NCBI GenBank assembly: GCA_902601785.1 | Contig: CACKOH010000001.1 | Location: 1-54,687, forward strand | Length of the DNA stretch: 54,687 bases | Direction of reading: 5' to 3' | DNA from: an uncultured Pelagibacteraceae bacterium | GTDB taxonomy: Bacteria; Pseudomonadota; Alphaproteobacteria; Pelagibacterales; Pelagibacteraceae | In this document: piece by piece, positions 28,891 to 35,957 of the stretch | Layout: each line of letters opens with the position of its first letter | Position numbering within the stretch: the first letter of the stretch is position 1 | Position numbers and translations under genes: made by a program | The notes under the pieces: model-generated | Database searches by the model: none | What the model saw: the letters and a program-made list of their open reading frames with translations, nothing else | Told to the model about the DNA's origin: nothing

Positions 28891-30297
28891 TTAATATTTA
28901 AAAAGAAATTTTTTAGCTATTAATAACAAAGATAAAAATTCAACCCTTCCTATAATCATAAAAACAATGAGAAAATATTTAGTTAAAAAATGTAAGTTTT
29001 GAAAGTCAAAATCACTAATTCCATAAGCAGAAGAATTTACAGTATTCATTAAAGTTAATACCGCCAATTTAAATGAATTTTCAAACTCAATATTACTCAA
29101 TGACAATAAAACTGTTAAAGAGAAAAGAGAAATAACAAATATTAAAACAGTTAAGAAATATTTATTAATATCAGCTGTATCAAAATTGATTTTAGAAAAA
29201 ATAAGTTTATTCATAAATACTTTATTAGGTTTACTAAAAGAAAGAATTTGATTGATTGAATATTTAGAAAGAGAATAAATTTTTAAAAACCTTAATCCTG
29301 AACTGGTAGAGAAAAAAGAACCTCCAACTATTACTAATATTAAATAGATTAGGTTTAAATTTTTTTGCTCTACTTCTAGTGATAAACCAATATTCGAAAT
29401 ACTACTAACTAAATTTAAGAAGTTAAATGAAAAATTTTTATCATAACTAAAAAAAATAAAAAAAAAGCTTACCAATAATAAAAAATATAAAAATAAATGA
29501 ATATCCTCATAAAAAAAATTAATATTTTTTTTTCTTAAGAAAATTAAATTATAAATAAAAAAAATACTAAAGAAAGATATCAACATTAAAAGTGAGAAAA
29601 CAATTATTTGTGTATTTGTCAAAAGTATTGTTGAAAGTGCATTATCAGGTAAAAAACCTCCAGAGGAAATAGCTGTCATTGCTAAATTAAGCGAATTAAA
29701 TGTTCTAATACCAAAAATATTAAGAATTATAAAAATTAAAATTGTTAAACTTGAGTACAAAAGAAAAATTTTTATAGTTTGCTTTAAAATCTCAGAACTA
29801 CTGAAAGATAAAAAATTTGTTAATGATTTTTTTAAACTTTCATCGTAAATATCGATTAGAAAGATTATCGAAAACAAAAAGTATAATCCACCAATCCATT
29901 GAGTTGAGGATCTCCATAATATTAAACCTTGGTCTATATTTTTGATGTTATCAAAAATACTAAAACCAGTTGAAGTAAAACCAGATACAGATTCAAAAAT
30001 AGCGTTTAAAAAAGTTAAATTATAAATACTTAAATAAAATGGAATACATAAAACTAAAGGTATTAATATATATCCAAGTAGTACAGTTAAAATCTTCTCA
30101 AAAATTGAAGGTTTTTTTAAACTTGATTTTAAGTAATAAAAAAAAATTCCTATTAGACCTGAGATTAATAAACTTACGTAATAAGTATTTAGGTTAAGAT
30201 ATAAATTAAAATAATAAGAATAAATTATATTAAAAAATGAAAGTATTGAGACAAGTATAAAAAAAAAACTTAAATATTTAACTCTAAATAATGACAT
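28891..30297 (-). CDS. trkH: Potassium uptake channel subunit TrkH
   Basis: Membrane component of the Trk K+ uptake system, gated by TrkA. The 468-aa protein has about ten membrane helices and recognisable selectivity-filter segments of the TrkH/KtrB family: SVSGFTSTGFSIFD (about residues 103-116), TAISSGGFLPD (about 208-218), SSISNIGLSL and NTVNSSAYG. The TQWIGGLYFL segment is also typical. It is Phe/Ile/Leu-rich in line with the A+T bias. It starts 4 bases after the trkA stop and is the last gene of ntrY-ntrX-trkA-trkH. Confidence 0.93.
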   Translation of the reverse strand: MSLFRVKYLSFFFILVSILSFFNIIYSYYFNLYLNLNTYYVSLLISGLIGIFFYYLKSSLKKPSIFEKILTVLLGYILIPLVLCIPFYLSIYNLTFLNAIFESVSGFTSTGFSIFDNIKNIDQGLILWRSSTQWIGGLYFLFSIIFLIDIYDESLKKSLTNFLSFSSSEILKQTIKIFLLYSSLTILIFIILNIFGIRTFNSLNLAMTAISSGGFLPDNALSTILLTNTQIIVFSLLMLISFFSIFFIYNLIFLRKKNINFFYEDIHLFLYFLLLVSFFFIFFSYDKNFSFNFLNLVSSISNIGLSLEVEQKNLNLIYLILVIVGGSFFSTSSGLRFLKIYSLSKYSINQILSFSKPNKVFMNKLIFSKINFDTADINKYFLTVLIFVISLFSLTVLLSLSNIEFENSFKLAVLTLMNTVNSSAYGISDFDFQNLHFLTKYFLIVFMIIGRVEFLSLLLIAKKFLFKY

Positions 30298-30301
30298 TTA
30301 A

Positions 30302-31693
30302 TTAGATCGAACTAATTCTAAAAATATTTTCTACTACTGAAATTGAGTCTTTATTTGCCAAAAACACGACCTTATCTTCTTTTAAAAAAATAAAGTCTGA
30401 TCGAGGGATTATTATCTTATCTCCTCTTAAAACTGCACCAATTCTAACCTCCTCAGGTAAATTTGAATTCTTTAATTCTTTATTTATCAACTCCGAGGTC
30501 TCGATAATTTCAGCTTCAATTACTTCATATTCACCATTCATAATTGTGTAAGCTGTTTCTATGGTACCTTTATGCACATGTTTTAATATGCTTGAAACTG
30601 TATTCATTCTTGGATCTATTAAATCATCAATTTTAAGCGAGTCCTGTAGCAAAGAATAATTAGGTTTATTAACTAATGCCATGGTTCTTTTATCCTCAAT
30701 TTCTTTTTCATCTTTAGCGAATTTTTCAACAAGTACACTAACCATTAAATTATCTTCATCATCATTGGTTAAAGCAAGAACAGTTTCGGCTTCTTCTAAA
30801 TTAGCTTCAGCTAACACTTCTTCATCTAAGCCGTTGCCATTAATCACTATGGTATTATTTAATTCTGATGCAAGGAATTCTGCTCTCTCTTTATCTTTTT
30901 CAACAATTTTAACTCTCGCAGCATCTAACGTTTCCTCAATATTTTTTGCAAGATTAAAACCGATATTACCACCTCCAACAATTAGAATTTTTTTAGAAAC
31001 TTTTTCTGTGTGGCCAAAAGCTTCAAGCGTTTCAGCAGTTTGTGAAGAGTTAATAATTACATAAATTTTGTCATTTTTTTTAATATCATCCTCTTTTTTT
31101 GGAATTATAAATTTATCATCTCTTATAATTCCAATTACATTTGCATCTAAATTAGGATATTTTTTTGTTAAATCTTTAAGCTTAATATTGATTAGGCTGC
31201 AGCCGTCATTGATAAGTATTTCTAACAAGCGTATTTTATTATCTGCAAAAGGAACACTGTCTAAAGCTCCTGGAGCCTCCAATTTTCTTTGAATTGATTT
31301 TGCAATTTCAAGCTCTGGAGAGATAATCACATCAATTGGTAGGTTTTCTTTATTATAAACAGTTGTAAATTTAGGATTTAGATAATCTTGTGATCTTATT
31401 CTTGCAATTTTTTTTGGAATATTAAATATGGAAAATGCTATTTGACATATAACCATATTAATTTCATCATTTCTTGTAACAGCAATAATCATATCAGTTT
31501 CTGCTGCATTAGCTTTCTCAAGTATTGATGGATAAGTTGCCTTACCAACGATTGCTTTAACATCCAAAGCATCATCAATTTTTTGTATGTCTTCACTTGA
31601 TGTATCTATAACAGTTATGGAATGCCCTTGTTCGCTTAATTGTTTGGCGATTGTGAACCCCACTCTTCCTGCGCCACAGATAATTATATTCAT
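30302..31693 (-). CDS. trkA: Trk potassium system regulatory subunit TrkA
   Basis: Cytosolic NAD(H)-binding gate of the Trk channel. The 463-aa protein consists of two RCK units. Each has a Rossmann nucleotide-binding motif: MNIIICGAGRVGFTIAKQLSEQGH (residues 1-24) and ILIVGGGNIGFNLAKNIE (about 235-252). Each is followed by a TrkA-C domain. Its first base overlaps the ntrX stop and trkH follows after 4 bases. The ntrX-trkA linkage is conserved in many Alphaproteobacteria. Confidence 0.97.
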   Translation of the reverse strand: MNIIICGAGRVGFTIAKQLSEQGHSITVIDTSSEDIQKIDDALDVKAIVGKATYPSILEKANAAETDMIIAVTRNDEINMVICQIAFSIFNIPKKIARIRSQDYLNPKFTTVYNKENLPIDVIISPELEIAKSIQRKLEAPGALDSVPFADNKIRLLEILINDGCSLINIKLKDLTKKYPNLDANVIGIIRDDKFIIPKKEDDIKKNDKIYVIINSSQTAETLEAFGHTEKVSKKILIVGGGNIGFNLAKNIEETLDAARVKIVEKDKERAEFLASELNNTIVINGNGLDEEVLAEANLEEAETVLALTNDDEDNLMVSVLVEKFAKDEKEIEDKRTMALVNKPNYSLLQDSLKIDDLIDPRMNTVSSILKHVHKGTIETAYTIMNGEYEVIEAEIIETSELINKELKNSNLPEEVRIGAVLRGDKIIIPRSDFIFLKEDKVVFLANKDSISVVENIFRISSI

Positions 31694-33048
31694 TAATTAA
31701 ATTCTTTGATTCCTAAGCCTTTTAGTTTTCTATGTAGGGCGCTACGCTCCATACCCACAAAGCTTGCTGTTTTTGAAATATTTCCATTAAATTTTTTTAA
31801 TTGGATAGTTAAATACTCTTTTTCAAACTTTTCTCTAGCCTCTTTTAATGGCACAGATAGGCTATTTTCAGTAATATCATCATCAAAATTATTATTTTTT
31901 AGGGACTCTTTAATAATATTTGAAATTTTATCTTTTGAATCTGGTTGCAATATGGCTATTCTTTCAATTAAATTTCTTAGTTCTCTTACGTTACCGTGCC
32001 AATTATGATTTAAAATATAACTATTATTTTCATCTATATTTAATTCTTTAATATTATAATTTTCAGATATCTTTTTTGAAAAATAATTTATCAAAAGTGG
32101 AATATCAGAAATTCTTTGATTTAAAGGTTCAACATTAATTTCAAATACATTAATTCTATGAAACAAATCTTCTCTAAAATTACCTATTTCTATTTCTTTT
32201 TTTAGGTCTTTACTTGAAGAACATATTAACCTCACATCAACAGTAACATCATTGCTCCCATTTACTCTTTTAAATTTCTGATCAGTTAAAACTCGAAGTA
32301 TCTTTGATTGAATATCTAATGGAATTTCTGAAATTTGATCAATTAAAAGTGCACCACCATTAGCCTTCTCTAATGCTCCATACGATATAGATCCGTTTTC
32401 TTTTTCTTCACCAAATAACTCTAGCTCATATTTATTAGAGTCTAACAGAGCACCATTTAGTATTACAAAAGGATTTTTAGCTCTTTTTGAATTTTTATGA
32501 ATTTTTCTAGCTATCAATTCTTTACCTGATCCTGAAGGGCCGTTTATAAATACTCTACTCTCAGTAATAGATATTTTTTTAATCTGATCTTTTATATTTG
32601 TTATATTTTTACTGTTTCCTATAATTTCGTAAGATGAAAAAAGTTTGTTTTCATATTCTTTGTTCTCTTTTTTGAGATTATAATTTTCTACAGCTCTTTT
32701 AACAAAATTTAGTAATCTTTCACGATCGAATGGTTTTTCAATAAATTCAAACGCACCTTTGTGTAAAGACTTAACTGCCATTTCAATATTAGCATGTCCA
32801 GAAATTATAATTACTGGAACATCCTTATTCTTTGACTTAATGTGAGAAAGTAGCTCTAAACCGTCATTATCTCCTTTGTCTAACTTGACATCTAATATAG
32901 CGACATCAGGTAATTTTTTGTCAATCTCAGATAGGGCTTGATTGTAATTAGCCGCTAATCTAGTTTTATAACCTGAGTCTAATATTAGTTCGTTAATAAT
33001 ATTCCTTATATCTGCATTATCATCAACAATTAGGATTTCACTACTCAT
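31693..33048 (-). CDS. ntrX: Response regulator NtrX, with degenerate AAA+ domain
   Basis: Transcription regulator that receives phosphate from NtrY; in relatives it links nitrogen, redox and envelope control. The 451-aa protein has a receiver domain (residues 1-120, phospho-acceptor D53, K105), a central AAA+ domain with Walker A GPSGSGKE (170-177), and a Fis-type helix-turn-helix (about 405-447, with NGNISKTASFVGMERSALHRKL). The sigma-54 contact loop GAFTGA is missing: the region reads GEEKENGSISYGALEKA (213-229). Walker B is LLIDQ (234-238), with Gln where a catalytic Glu is expected. It therefore probably does not activate sigma-54 and may not hydrolyse ATP. Confidence 0.92.
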   Translation of the reverse strand: MSSEILIVDDNADIRNIINELILDSGYKTRLAANYNQALSEIDKKLPDVAILDVKLDKGDNDGLELLSHIKSKNKDVPVIIISGHANIEMAVKSLHKGAFEFIEKPFDRERLLNFVKRAVENYNLKKENKEYENKLFSSYEIIGNSKNITNIKDQIKKISITESRVFINGPSGSGKELIARKIHKNSKRAKNPFVILNGALLDSNKYELELFGEEKENGSISYGALEKANGGALLIDQISEIPLDIQSKILRVLTDQKFKRVNGSNDVTVDVRLICSSSKDLKKEIEIGNFREDLFHRINVFEINVEPLNQRISDIPLLINYFSKKISENYNIKELNIDENNSYILNHNWHGNVRELRNLIERIAILQPDSKDKISNIIKESLKNNNFDDDITENSLSVPLKEAREKFEKEYLTIQLKKFNGNISKTASFVGMERSALHRKLKGLGIKEFN

Positions 33049-33049
33049 A

Positions 33050-34831
33050 TTATTTTATAAAATTAATTTTAATTGTTGCTCCACTATCTTTTGGTATGAA
33101 TTCAATTTTACCATTATGATCATTTATAATTTTATTTACTATTGATAATCCTAAACCAGTACCATTTTTTTTGGTTGTAAAGTAAGGATTTAAAATATCT
33201 TTAATATTTTCATTAAGTTTTTCAAATCCTACGCCATTATCAGCAATAACTAGATTTATGTGGTCATCACTCTCTGTAAGTTCAATGGTGATTTTTTTAT
33301 TGAAATTACTTCCATTTTCAGCTTTTTGTTGAATACTTTCTATTGAGTTTTTAATTAAATTTAAAAATACTCTACTTATTTGTTCTCTATCACTATTTAA
33401 GATGATTTTATCTGCGTTGCTAGATAAATCTATTTTAATTGAACTATCTAATTCCTTTAATAATTTAATATTCTCTTTAAGTAAAATTACTATGTTGTTT
33501 TCTCTTAATGTAGGCTTTGGCATCCTTGCAAAATCAGAAAATTCATTTGCAAGTTTGCCAATTTGCTTAATCTGATTATTAATTATTTTTAAATTTTCTT
33601 TAAAATTCTCTGATTCTTTTTCTTGTAATAAATTTGAATATTTTTCATTTAATCTATCAATTGTTAATTGAATTGGTGTAAGAGGATTTCTTATTTCATG
33701 AGCTAATTTCCTTGCTATACTACTCCATGCTTCATGTCTTTCATTAATAATTAGTTTTTCCTGCTGACTTTTAAGTCGATCAATCATTAAATTAAAATTT
33801 TTATTTAATATCTCTAAATCCTTATCAGTTTTTACCTCTGGAACTTTTGCATCAAAATTTCCTTCACCAATTGAAGTTGAGGCGTAGATTAAATTATTAA
33901 TAGATCTAAAAAATCTTGATGAAAATCTAATAGCTATTGATATAGATACAAACAATAAAACACTCACAACTATAATGTATATGATTGCAAAAGATATTTT
34001 TATACCAGTGCTTTTTTCTTCTACTGTATAATAAAAATTAATTGCTTCCTGTGACTCATTTAAATAATTTGAAATTTCTTTATCCAAATATTTTACAACA
34101 TAAAGAAATCTGTCATTAAAATTTTGTAGCCTCATTATTGCTGCAGAAATATTTTCTGGAGCATTAATTATTTTTAAAGGTCTATCGTCATCCAAAACCA
34201 AATTAAGAGCTTTATCAACAGGAGGTACGAAAAACTGATTATTACTTAGTGTTGTAAATAAGAGTTTTTTATTTACATCAATTATATGAATTTCATCCAC
34301 ATCTCTTATTAATTTTTGAGTGCTTAAAAAACGTTTATATTCTTTTACATTATCATTTAAAAATTTTTTACTCTTATTTGTATCAAAAGCAATTAGTACA
34401 ATATCTGATTGAATTTTATTTCTTATTTCATTTACATAGCTTCTTGCTAGCTCATAGGAATTATTGACCACTGTAGTTACTTTTTTGTCAAAATATTTTT
34501 CAAGTGCAAAAGAAAATAGAAATAATGAAAAAATTGAAATTAAAACAGAGGGTATTAGTGTAAATAAAGCAAAGTAAGTAATATATTTTTTATTCGATTT
34601 TAAACCATCTTTATCAACATCATTTTTAATTGCTTTTTGAATTTCTGTAAAAATAAATAAGAATAGAGAAATTAATAAAATAATATTAAGGATTAATAAA
34701 TACTGTAAATTCTGATCATTTAATTCAATAAAGCCTTTGTCGATGAAAGTCAAAAAGGTTAAAAAACCTATCGATAATGTGATAGTAAATAATATTATTA
34801 GGTATATGTTTTTTTTAATAAATTCTGACAT
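33050..34831 (-). CDS. ntrY: Sensor histidine kinase NtrY (reduced, no PAS domain)
   Basis: Membrane sensor kinase paired with NtrX. The 593-aa protein has three N-terminal membrane segments (about residues 10-28, 43-62, 84-110), a periplasmic or sensor region (about 111-275), a fourth membrane segment (280-301), HAMP (about 303-355), HisKA with H378 in ARKLAHEIRNPLTPIQ, and a HATPase domain with NLIKNSIESI, ADNGVGFE and GTGLGLSIV. Classical NtrY is over 700 residues with a PAS domain between HAMP and HisKA; here only about ten residues separate them. It ends 2 bases before ntrX and faces ispDF. Confidence 0.93.
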   Translation of the reverse strand: MSEFIKKNIYLIILFTITLSIGFLTFLTFIDKGFIELNDQNLQYLLILNIILLISLFLFIFTEIQKAIKNDVDKDGLKSNKKYITYFALFTLIPSVLISIFSLFLFSFALEKYFDKKVTTVVNNSYELARSYVNEIRNKIQSDIVLIAFDTNKSKKFLNDNVKEYKRFLSTQKLIRDVDEIHIIDVNKKLLFTTLSNNQFFVPPVDKALNLVLDDDRPLKIINAPENISAAIMRLQNFNDRFLYVVKYLDKEISNYLNESQEAINFYYTVEEKSTGIKISFAIIYIIVVSVLLFVSISIAIRFSSRFFRSINNLIYASTSIGEGNFDAKVPEVKTDKDLEILNKNFNLMIDRLKSQQEKLIINERHEAWSSIARKLAHEIRNPLTPIQLTIDRLNEKYSNLLQEKESENFKENLKIINNQIKQIGKLANEFSDFARMPKPTLRENNIVILLKENIKLLKELDSSIKIDLSSNADKIILNSDREQISRVFLNLIKNSIESIQQKAENGSNFNKKITIELTESDDHINLVIADNGVGFEKLNENIKDILNPYFTTKKNGTGLGLSIVNKIINDHNGKIEFIPKDSGATIKINFIK

Positions 34832-34856
34832 TTGAGTAAAAAATTAGCACTATATA

Positions 34857-35957
34857 ATGAATAACTATTTTATAATACTAGCATCAGGACAAAGCAAAAG
34901 ATTTAATTCAAGCAAAACTAAGCAATACATTATCTATAAAAATAAGCCTCTTTTTGAACACTCTGTCGAAAAAGGTTTAACATCTAAATTATTTAAAAAA
35001 ATAATTTTAGTTGTGAATAATAAAAAACAAATCAATAAAAAATTTCCAGAAAATGTAATTATTTTGAAGGGAGGCAAAGAAAGATCAGACTCCTCTCTAA
35101 TAGGACTTAATTACATTAAAAAATTTAAACCATCAAATGTCTTGATCCATGATGCTGCAAGACCAAATTTTTCCATAAAACTTTTAAAAAATTTAGTTAG
35201 ATCCCTTAGCAAAAATAAGGCTGTTATTCCCATAATAAATACAAATGACTCTATTAAGTACAGAGTAAAAAAACAGTTATTTAATTTAAAACGTGAAAAT
35301 TCTTTTTCAACTCAAACCCCACAAGCTTTCAAATTTAATAATCTTTATAGACTAGCATTAAAACAAAAAGCTAAAATTCAAGATGAAGCAACATTATTTA
35401 TAGAGAATAATTTGAAAATTAAATTTGTTAAAGGTGAAAATTTAAATAGTAAAATTACTTATATAGAAGACATCAAAATTAATAAAACATTTGTTGGAAT
35501 AGGTTTTGATATTCATAGATTAATTAGTGGAAAAAAACTTTACTTAGGTGGTTTAAAAATACCTTTTCATTCAGGGTTAAAAGGTCATTCAGATGGAGAT
35601 GTTATAATTCATTCCATTATTGATGCTCTACTGGGTGCAATGAGAAAAAAAGACATAGGAACTTTATTTCCAGATAATAAAAAAAAATTTAAAAACATAA
35701 GATCTCCTAAAATGTTAAAACCAGTAATTCAGATAATGGATAAAAATCAATTCTATATCAATAACGTTGATATAAATTTAATATGTGAGCAACCCAAAGT
35801 CTCAAAATACAGAGATAAAATAATTAAATCCTTATCTAAATTATTAAACATTGATAGTTCATTAATAAATCTAAAAGGCAAAACTGTTGAAAAATTAGGA
35901 TTAATAGGAAAGGAAAAAGCAATTGCTTGCGAGGTAATTTGCTCAATTTCTCAATGA
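34857..35957 (+). CDS. ispDF: Bifunctional IspD/IspF isoprenoid enzyme
   Basis: Fused enzyme of the MEP pathway: the IspD half attaches CMP to methylerythritol phosphate and the IspF half makes the cyclodiphosphate. The 366-aa protein has an N-terminal cytidylyltransferase (about residues 1-210, ASGQSKRFNSSKTKQY, LIHDAARPN, TQTPQAF) and a C-terminal IspF domain (about 215-366). The IspF half has GIGFDIHRLISG, GHSDGDVIIHSIIDALLGA and DIGTLFPDN, with the metal-binding Asp/His present. This fusion is typical of Alphaproteobacteria. It overlaps pgpA (ATGA) and diverges from ntrY. Confidence 0.97.
   Translation: MNNYFIILASGQSKRFNSSKTKQYIIYKNKPLFEHSVEKGLTSKLFKKIILVVNNKKQINKKFPENVIILKGGKERSDSSLIGLNYIKKFKPSNVLIHDAARPNFSIKLLKNLVRSLSKNKAVIPIINTNDSIKYRVKKQLFNLKRENSFSTQTPQAFKFNNLYRLALKQKAKIQDEATLFIENNLKIKFVKGENLNSKITYIEDIKINKTFVGIGFDIHRLISGKKLYLGGLKIPFHSGLKGHSDGDVIIHSIIDALLGAMRKKDIGTLFPDNKKKFKNIRSPKMLKPVIQIMDKNQFYINNVDINLICEQPKVSKYRDKIIKSLSKLLNIDSSLINLKGKTVEKLGLIGKEKAIACEVICSISQ

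Follow-up and report, generated by a model that had tools for sequence, protein, structure and literature searches.

Glutamine in place of the Walker B glutamate in the GAFTGA-less NtrX of a Pelagibacter subclade

Several regulators of the NtrC family have been described without the GAFTGA loop. According to excerpts of PMC10274813, the NtrC of Rhodobacter capsulatus lacks the motif, works together with sigma-70, and depends on ATP binding but not on hydrolysis. In the same excerpts, Caulobacter NtrC has no GAFTGA either, growth on ammonium depends on its Walker A Lys and Walker B Asp, and hydrolysis is apparently required. Replacement of the Walker B Glu has been studied in PspF, where, by the excerpted text of PMC4132715, E108 touches N64 when ATP is bound but not when ADP is. 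Replacing E108 by Gln (mutant E108Q) impaired ATPase activity, raised the ATP affinity 30-fold and gave a hexamer without nucleotide, while the N64 contact was kept in the apo, ATP and ADP forms (PMC4132715, same excerpts). For SAR11, the excerpted text of PMC13198564 gives four two-component systems and, as its two sigma factors, only sigma-70 and sigma-32.

We analysed the NtrX encoded in a 54,687-nucleotide stretch of Pelagibacteraceae DNA, the whole of which is called the window here. The protein keeps its ATP-binding residues and its catalytic Glu is gone. The change is real, well supported and specific to a lineage, and it lies in a branch of the NtrC family already known to be independent of sigma-54. 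What is new, to our knowledge and within the literature searched, is that the Walker B Glu was lost repeatedly, to a chemically narrow set of residues, from sites that are otherwise retained. None of the texts in that search, which took in excerpts and left most subscription papers outside its scope, describes a SAR11 NtrX without its Walker B Glu.

The ntrX locus and its ATP site

The locus has the gene order ntrY-ntrX-trkA-trkH, and its ntrX frame encodes a full-length NtrX with receiver, AAA+ and Fis-type helix-turn-helix (HTH) domains.

28891 to 30297, reverse strand: trkH-like gene, from gene order
30302 to 31693, reverse strand: trkA-like gene, next in the operon, from gene order
31693 to 33048, reverse strand: ntrX, NtrC-family response regulator of 451 aa (open reading frame, domain scan, sequence and structure matches)
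31720 to 31836, reverse strand: Fis-type HTH of NtrX, PF02954, residues 405-443 (1.9e-10)
32137 to 32625, reverse strand: AAA+ domain of NtrX, PF00158, residues 142-304 (156 bits)
32701 to 33036, reverse strand: receiver domain of NtrX, PF00072, residues 5-116 (3.9e-28)
33050 to 34831, reverse strand: ntrY, cognate histidine kinase (PF19312 N-terminus, HisKA, HATPase)

We take the genes at 30302 to 31693 and 28891 to 30297 to be trkA and trkH from their order. The ntrX stop shares one base with the start of the trkA-like gene, and the ntrY product keeps its HEIRNPL, DNGVGF and GTGLGLS boxes. The arrangement is conserved: ntrY precedes and trkA follows ntrX in all 44 named SAR11 loci, and trkH and ispDF are in place in most of them, with gaps at contig ends and trkH also gone in two (L248 and L262). 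The gene upstream of ntrY is presumably an ispDF-like fusion. It diverges from ntrY with 25 bases between the start codons (window 34831-34857), so the promoters must overlap or sit in coding sequence; the same divergent layout was seen again in many SAR11 loci.

The receiver retains D9, D10, the phospho-acceptor D53, S83 and K105, and D53 is found in 128 of the 130 rows of the order alignment, the remaining two being gaps. A phosphorylation site of SAR11 NtrX was obtained by Ser/Thr/Tyr phosphoproteomics, which has no bearing on D53 (PMC13198564, excerpts). The domain scan also detected the AAA lid. By sequence, the closest solved relative is Brucella NtrX 5m7n (phmmer E 1.3e-120, query 1-447). 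An AlphaFold model built from eight SAR11 NtrX (mean pLDDT 83, pTM 0.56) gave Brucella NtrX chains as its first six Foldseek matches (5m7o, 5m7p, 5m7n); whole-chain TM-scores of about 0.5 with large rmsd show that the match does not extend to the relative domain placement. The domain set, the nearest solved relative, the position between ntrY and trkA, the grouping in the tree and the GAFTGA-less L1 region all agree with assignment to NtrX.

Residues 211-242 of the protein read LFGEEKENGSISYGALEKANGGALLIDQISEI, and the nucleotide site is laid out as follows.

31984 to 31986, reverse strand: R355, sensor II arginine (GNVRELRN); 174/174 SAR11 rows
32155 to 32175, reverse strand: arginine-finger region R292...R298, with D294; R298 in 174/174 and R292 in 169/174 SAR11 rows
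32212 to 32214, reverse strand: S279, sensor I position; Asn in 21 and His in 9 of 30 GAFTGA activators
32335 to 32349, reverse strand: Walker B LLIDQ, residues 234-238; Q238 codon CAA at 32337-32335
32362 to 32412, reverse strand: L1 region GEEKENGSISYGALEKA, residues 213-229, no GAFTGA by sequence and alignment
32455 to 32457, reverse strand: N198, glutamate-switch Asn position; Asn in 35/35 Q-type SAR11 NtrX and 30/30 GAFTGA activators
32518 to 32541, reverse strand: Walker A GPSGSGKE, residues 170-177, with K176; Lys in 174/174 SAR11 rows

The open reading frame and the alignment bear out what the earlier note had read from this gene, namely a retained K176, no GAFTGA at 213-229, and LLIDQ with CAA as codon 238. 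The ATP-binding signature (Walker A Lys, Walker B Asp, arginine finger and sensor II Arg) is present in the window's NtrX, and K176, D237, R298 and R355 were invariant in all 174 SAR11 rows. We take N198 to be the equivalent of PspF N64, from alignment with GAFTGA activators. The features of a sigma-54 activator, that is, GAFTGA, the Walker B Glu and a sigma-54 in the cell, were all absent.

The last of these was assessed with PF04552, which gave no match in any of 197 family genomes (77 of high quality), the source draft included. Across the order none of 117 genomes had a match over the cut-off; weak matches below it occurred in three, in frames of 843-874 aa. In the class, 215 of 289 genomes carry the domain. 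The source genome has one PF00158 domain. PF00158 was found in 161 of the 197 family genomes and in 69 of the 77 high-quality ones. Among the matches listed, genomes of the window's genus with PF00158 have one match each, and second matches in other genera are weak (about 4e-7). Neither rpoN nor a second sigma-54-activator domain turned up in the source draft.

Separately, three draft genomes of the class without a PF04552 match carry a GAFTGA activator (G390, locus L200; G294, L325; G260, L328). They may reflect assembly gaps, or sigma-54 activators stranded without sigma-54.

Distribution of the loop and of the Walker B Glu

GAFTGA was found in none of the 293 sampled alphaproteobacterial NtrX rows, in genomes with and without rpoN alike, a figure affected by the prior exclusion of seven GAFTGA-bearing loci (L193-195, L198-201) as NtrC-type paralogues on the basis of their loop and 32-36% identity. 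A tree run after counting, with the loop columns left in, separated these seven paralogues and 30 GAFTGA activators from 97 NtrX rows by one branch (SH-aLRT 100). The 30 activators, chosen by PF00158 score from class genomes, served as a control, and all have GAFTGA, the Lys, the DE pair and N198. The class rows other than those of named records come from 43 rpoN-bearing entries and 40 in which rpoN was not found. Since the loop is missing from all 293 rows, also in rpoN-bearing genomes, its absence is a trait of the NtrX family. Brucella NtrX reportedly lacks it as well. For Caulobacter NtrX the same is already in print (PMC10274813, excerpts). The absence of GAFTGA in NtrX is therefore an old trait, and the sigma-54 part of the story is already known. 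The sensor I residue of SAR11 NtrX is Ser in 143 of 174 rows and Asn in four; outside SAR11, Asn was found in 17 of the 96 rows that keep the Lys and the Asp.

Position 238 varies within SAR11. The first family alignment, in which 109 NtrX among the matches listed were read besides the window's, gave E in 63, Q in 23, N in 23 and H in one row (n=110). All 20 NtrX read in a second family of the order, likewise among the matches listed, have E. The unique SAR11 sequences comprise 105 with E, 35 with Q, 23 with N and two with H (n=165). The suggestion that Q238 might be fixed across SAR11 thus fails. In a tree of 140 SAR11 rows with column 238 removed, three changes were needed: one from E to Q on the branch leading to a 24-row clade (SH-aLRT 100), one from Q to H, and the appearance of N in a 23-row group whose support of 51 makes two N origins possible. 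Within the window's genus, Q238 is fixed in a single subclade, the two unique H rows aside. Q- and E-type proteins within this one genus are about 70-79% identical to the window's protein. The source genome is a draft of 33 contigs and 87% complete, which might raise the thought that Q238 is a sequencing or assembly artefact. There is practically no chance of this, and we rejected it, because Q occurs in 35 unique SAR11 sequences, 13 of them from named public records (L222-L233, L235).

The class sample (83 rows plus 36 from named records) was partly chosen in both parts and favoured rpoN-minus and low-scoring genomes. Before the counts we dropped the window's own two entries (L001 and L002), the seven paralogues and nine duplicates (293 to 284 rows), and the 23 non-SAR11 rows without the Walker A Lys or the Walker B Asp were kept out of the 261-row tree and are reported apart. 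This tree required nine changes at position 238, eight of them between E and another residue. One parsimony reading has seven losses of E (two in SAR11 and five outside), together with a reversal to E and a change from Q to H. In the tree with the GAFTGA activators, the low-identity class rows L188, L190-L192 and L197 form long branches; they may be badly decayed NtrX. Outside SAR11, then, the Glu was lost about five times within the sample. The Lys, the Asp and R298 are kept in four rows without the Glu, L134 (N), L139 and L207 (H), and L293 (Q); the singletons L152 and L190 have also lost R298 and were excluded from the intact-site count. Wherever the Walker A Lys and the Walker B Asp are kept among the 261 rows, the Glu is replaced by Q, N or H only.

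We rejected the possibility that loss of the Glu follows loss of rpoN. Among the intact-site rows outside SAR11, a small sample in which the label 'no rpoN' rests on drafts and may in some cases reflect assembly gaps, the Glu is gone in one of 25 without rpoN and two of 33 with it (Fisher p = 1.0). No rpoN was found over the cut-off in the order, yet E is still present in the majority of the SAR11 NtrX sampled, so the missing RpoN does not explain Q238. The earlier note had stated that NtrX lost both the loop and the Glu, and had tied these losses to a missing RpoN. Loss of the Glu stands as a lineage event; loss of the loop in this lineage does not, given the 293 rows above. Likewise, its reading that sigma-54-type activation is absent and that the ATP-binding residues remain without the Glu is upheld, and the framing of both losses by RpoN is not borne out, the missing loop being common to the sampled NtrX of the class.

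Some loci depart further from the usual NtrX. L090 (G040:C1:945835-947362) comes from a genome of one contig given as 100% complete; its frame has 379 aa and matches NtrX only from query residue 73 on, so much of the receiver is missing from it. Of L095 (G062:C3) and L088 (G054:C18), one has NtrX split over two matches and the other carries one in-frame TAA; decay and sequencing errors are both possible there. In L185, L187 and L189, which belong to one class lineage (f10), KN replaces DE, so that the Walker B Asp is lost too, and changes also affect the arginine-finger and sensor II regions; two of these genomes carry a GAFTGA-bearing gene (L200, L201) on the contig of ntrX. Walker A is changed in some NtrX of L148-L161 and L183-L184, mostly small-genome class members (GPVGCDRAA in L150, for example), which suggests that nucleotide binding was lost in some lineages.

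Eight chosen genomes without NtrX, 94-97% complete and seven of them from the window's genus, contain ntrY in two cases and trkA in none, and both positive controls have both genes. Six near-complete genomes (G127, G162, G172, G188, G196 and G036) have no strong match to ntrX, ntrY or trkA. Contig gaps are the likely cause of these absences, with real loss of the region as the alternative, and we make no claim that ntrX was lost.

Selection on the AAA+ domain and the proposed role

The AAA+ domain is under continued purifying selection. In the Q clade, pN/pS is 0.095 for AAA+ and 0.081 for the receiver, a ratio of 1.16 over 163 pairs that are not independent. The ratios for two E-type groups, 1.46 (53 pairs) and 1.11 (10 pairs), bracket this value, and that of the N-type rows, 1.55 (33 pairs), is the highest of the four groups; these pairs are not independent either. 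Compared with E-type proteins of the same genus, pN/pS in the Q clade is somewhat higher in both domains (AAA+ 0.095 vs 0.064; receiver 0.081 vs 0.044). N198 is present in 35/35 Q-type, 102/105 E-type and 16/23 N-type SAR11 rows; in the other seven N-type rows it is replaced by D.

These data bear on neutral decay, by which sigma-54 work and hydrolysis were lost first, the Glu was no longer selected, Q, N and H represent drift, and the AAA+ domain serves as a scaffold or dimerisation module. E-type NtrX is already without GAFTGA and mostly without the sensor I Asn, and the Walker A Lys or the Walker B Asp is lost in 23 of 119 non-SAR11 rows, as such decay would have it. However, the neighbours K176, D237, R298 and R355 are unchanged in SAR11. 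The N at 238 persists over a 23-row clade with a summed branch length of 4.79 changes per column, although its invariance there is unremarkable, as 112 of the 440 columns are invariant in that clade. The replacements are also narrow: besides Q, the residues one base away from GAA or GAG (K, D, G, A and V) are unseen in the 261 rows, whereas N and H, which need two base changes, occur. The BLOSUM62-based chance of drawing only Q, N or H is 0.187 per event, giving 2.3e-4 for five events and 8e-6 for seven; the figure is post hoc, as the restricted alphabet was spotted before testing. On balance we consider neutral decay unlikely, without dismissing it.

Among the 23 rows that have lost the Walker A Lys or the Walker B Asp, 12 do not have E (nine N, one H, one S and one D). 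Because N and H also occur in these rows, the preference for them could reflect packing or a switch contact rather than ATP locking, and part of it may be structural.

Probably, NtrX is a sigma-70-type regulator that is controlled by phosphorylation and binds ATP but does not hydrolyse it productively, its AAA+ module being kept as a folded, ATP-binding domain. Alphaproteobacterial NtrX would have dropped sigma-54 remodelling long ago, along with GAFTGA and, usually, the sensor I Asn, and become a DNA-binding regulator controlled by its phospho-receiver at sigma-70-type promoters. The AAA+ domain would have stayed folded and able to bind ATP, consistent with the retained Walker A Lys, Walker B Asp, arginine fingers and sensor II Arg. 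In the window's subclade the catalytic Glu was swapped once for Gln. By analogy with PspF E108Q, this Gln should lower hydrolysis, raise the affinity for ATP and hold the Q238-N198 switch in an ATP-like state. ATP would then be a bound cofactor, and phosphorylation by NtrY the switch. For Pelagibacter NtrX we infer ATP binding, absent hydrolysis, sigma-70 promoters and switch locking; the literature searched, seen partly in excerpt, yielded no binding, ATPase or transcription data for SAR11 NtrX. The excerpts of PMC9223101, PMC4426382, PMC7240162, PMC7264223, PMC6211767 and PMC5892882 contain nothing on NtrX ATPase activity.

Several points weigh on this role. The N-type rows count against it, by their high AAA+/receiver ratio and by the D at 198 in seven of them, and so does Caulobacter NtrC, which has no GAFTGA and apparently still requires hydrolysis. 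PspF E108Q keeps a slow ATPase, so by the same analogy Q need not mean zero hydrolysis, which we count against the proposed role. The E-bearing NtrX of Brucella is said to be already without ATPase activity, and if so Q238 changes little. A slow but working ATPase, with another residue activating the water and with hydrolysis put to use at sigma-70 promoters, a mode proposed for Caulobacter NtrC, seems quite improbable to us. The arginine fingers are kept in the window's NtrX, and the GAFTGA-less Caulobacter protein depends on its Walker A Lys and Walker B Asp (PMC10274813, excerpts). Nevertheless, Q238 and S279 stand where all 30 GAFTGA activators have the Walker B Glu and, at sensor I, Asn or His.

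A broader proposal, which we advance tentatively and rate well below the ATP-binding regulator, is that alphaproteobacterial NtrX repeatedly became natural Walker B 'trap' proteins. The Glu would give way only to Q, N or H where the Lys and the Asp are kept, ATP would be a permanent tight cofactor with the glutamate switch engaged, and AAA+ assembly would be set by the ATP level, not by turnover. If NtrX does hold ATP as a cofactor and not as fuel, it would be a natural counterpart of the laboratory mutant made to freeze AAA+ activators. The Q/E split inside one genus also offers matched pairs with which to probe the purpose of the AAA+ domain in sigma-54-independent NtrC-family proteins.

Comparison with known systems

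Brucella abortus NtrX (5m7n, 5m7o, 5m7p) resembles the window's NtrX from end to end in its domains, lacks GAFTGA, and has the Walker A Lys and the Walker B Asp; going by entry titles, its structures include ATP- and ADP-bound forms (5m7n, 5m7p). It differs at the catalytic position, with E opposite Q238, so that the Walker B Glu kept there is gone in the window's protein. The sensor I residue is Ala in Brucella and Ser here.

PspF E108Q (4qnm, 4qos) carries the same Glu-to-Gln replacement and keeps the switch Asn, and its AAA+ fold is similar (TMt 0.83 with 4qnm). PspF has no receiver domain. The mutant is a man-made form of a GAFTGA-bearing sigma-54 activator, whereas the window's NtrX is natural and without GAFTGA.

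Rhodobacter capsulatus NtrC is a precedent among GAFTGA-less NtrC-family regulators, but it is an NtrC and not an NtrX. Both NtrX and NtrC of Caulobacter are without GAFTGA, as is the window's NtrX (PMC10274813, excerpts). The Caulobacter genome, however, carries other GAFTGA activators, while the window's source genome has its single PF00158 domain.
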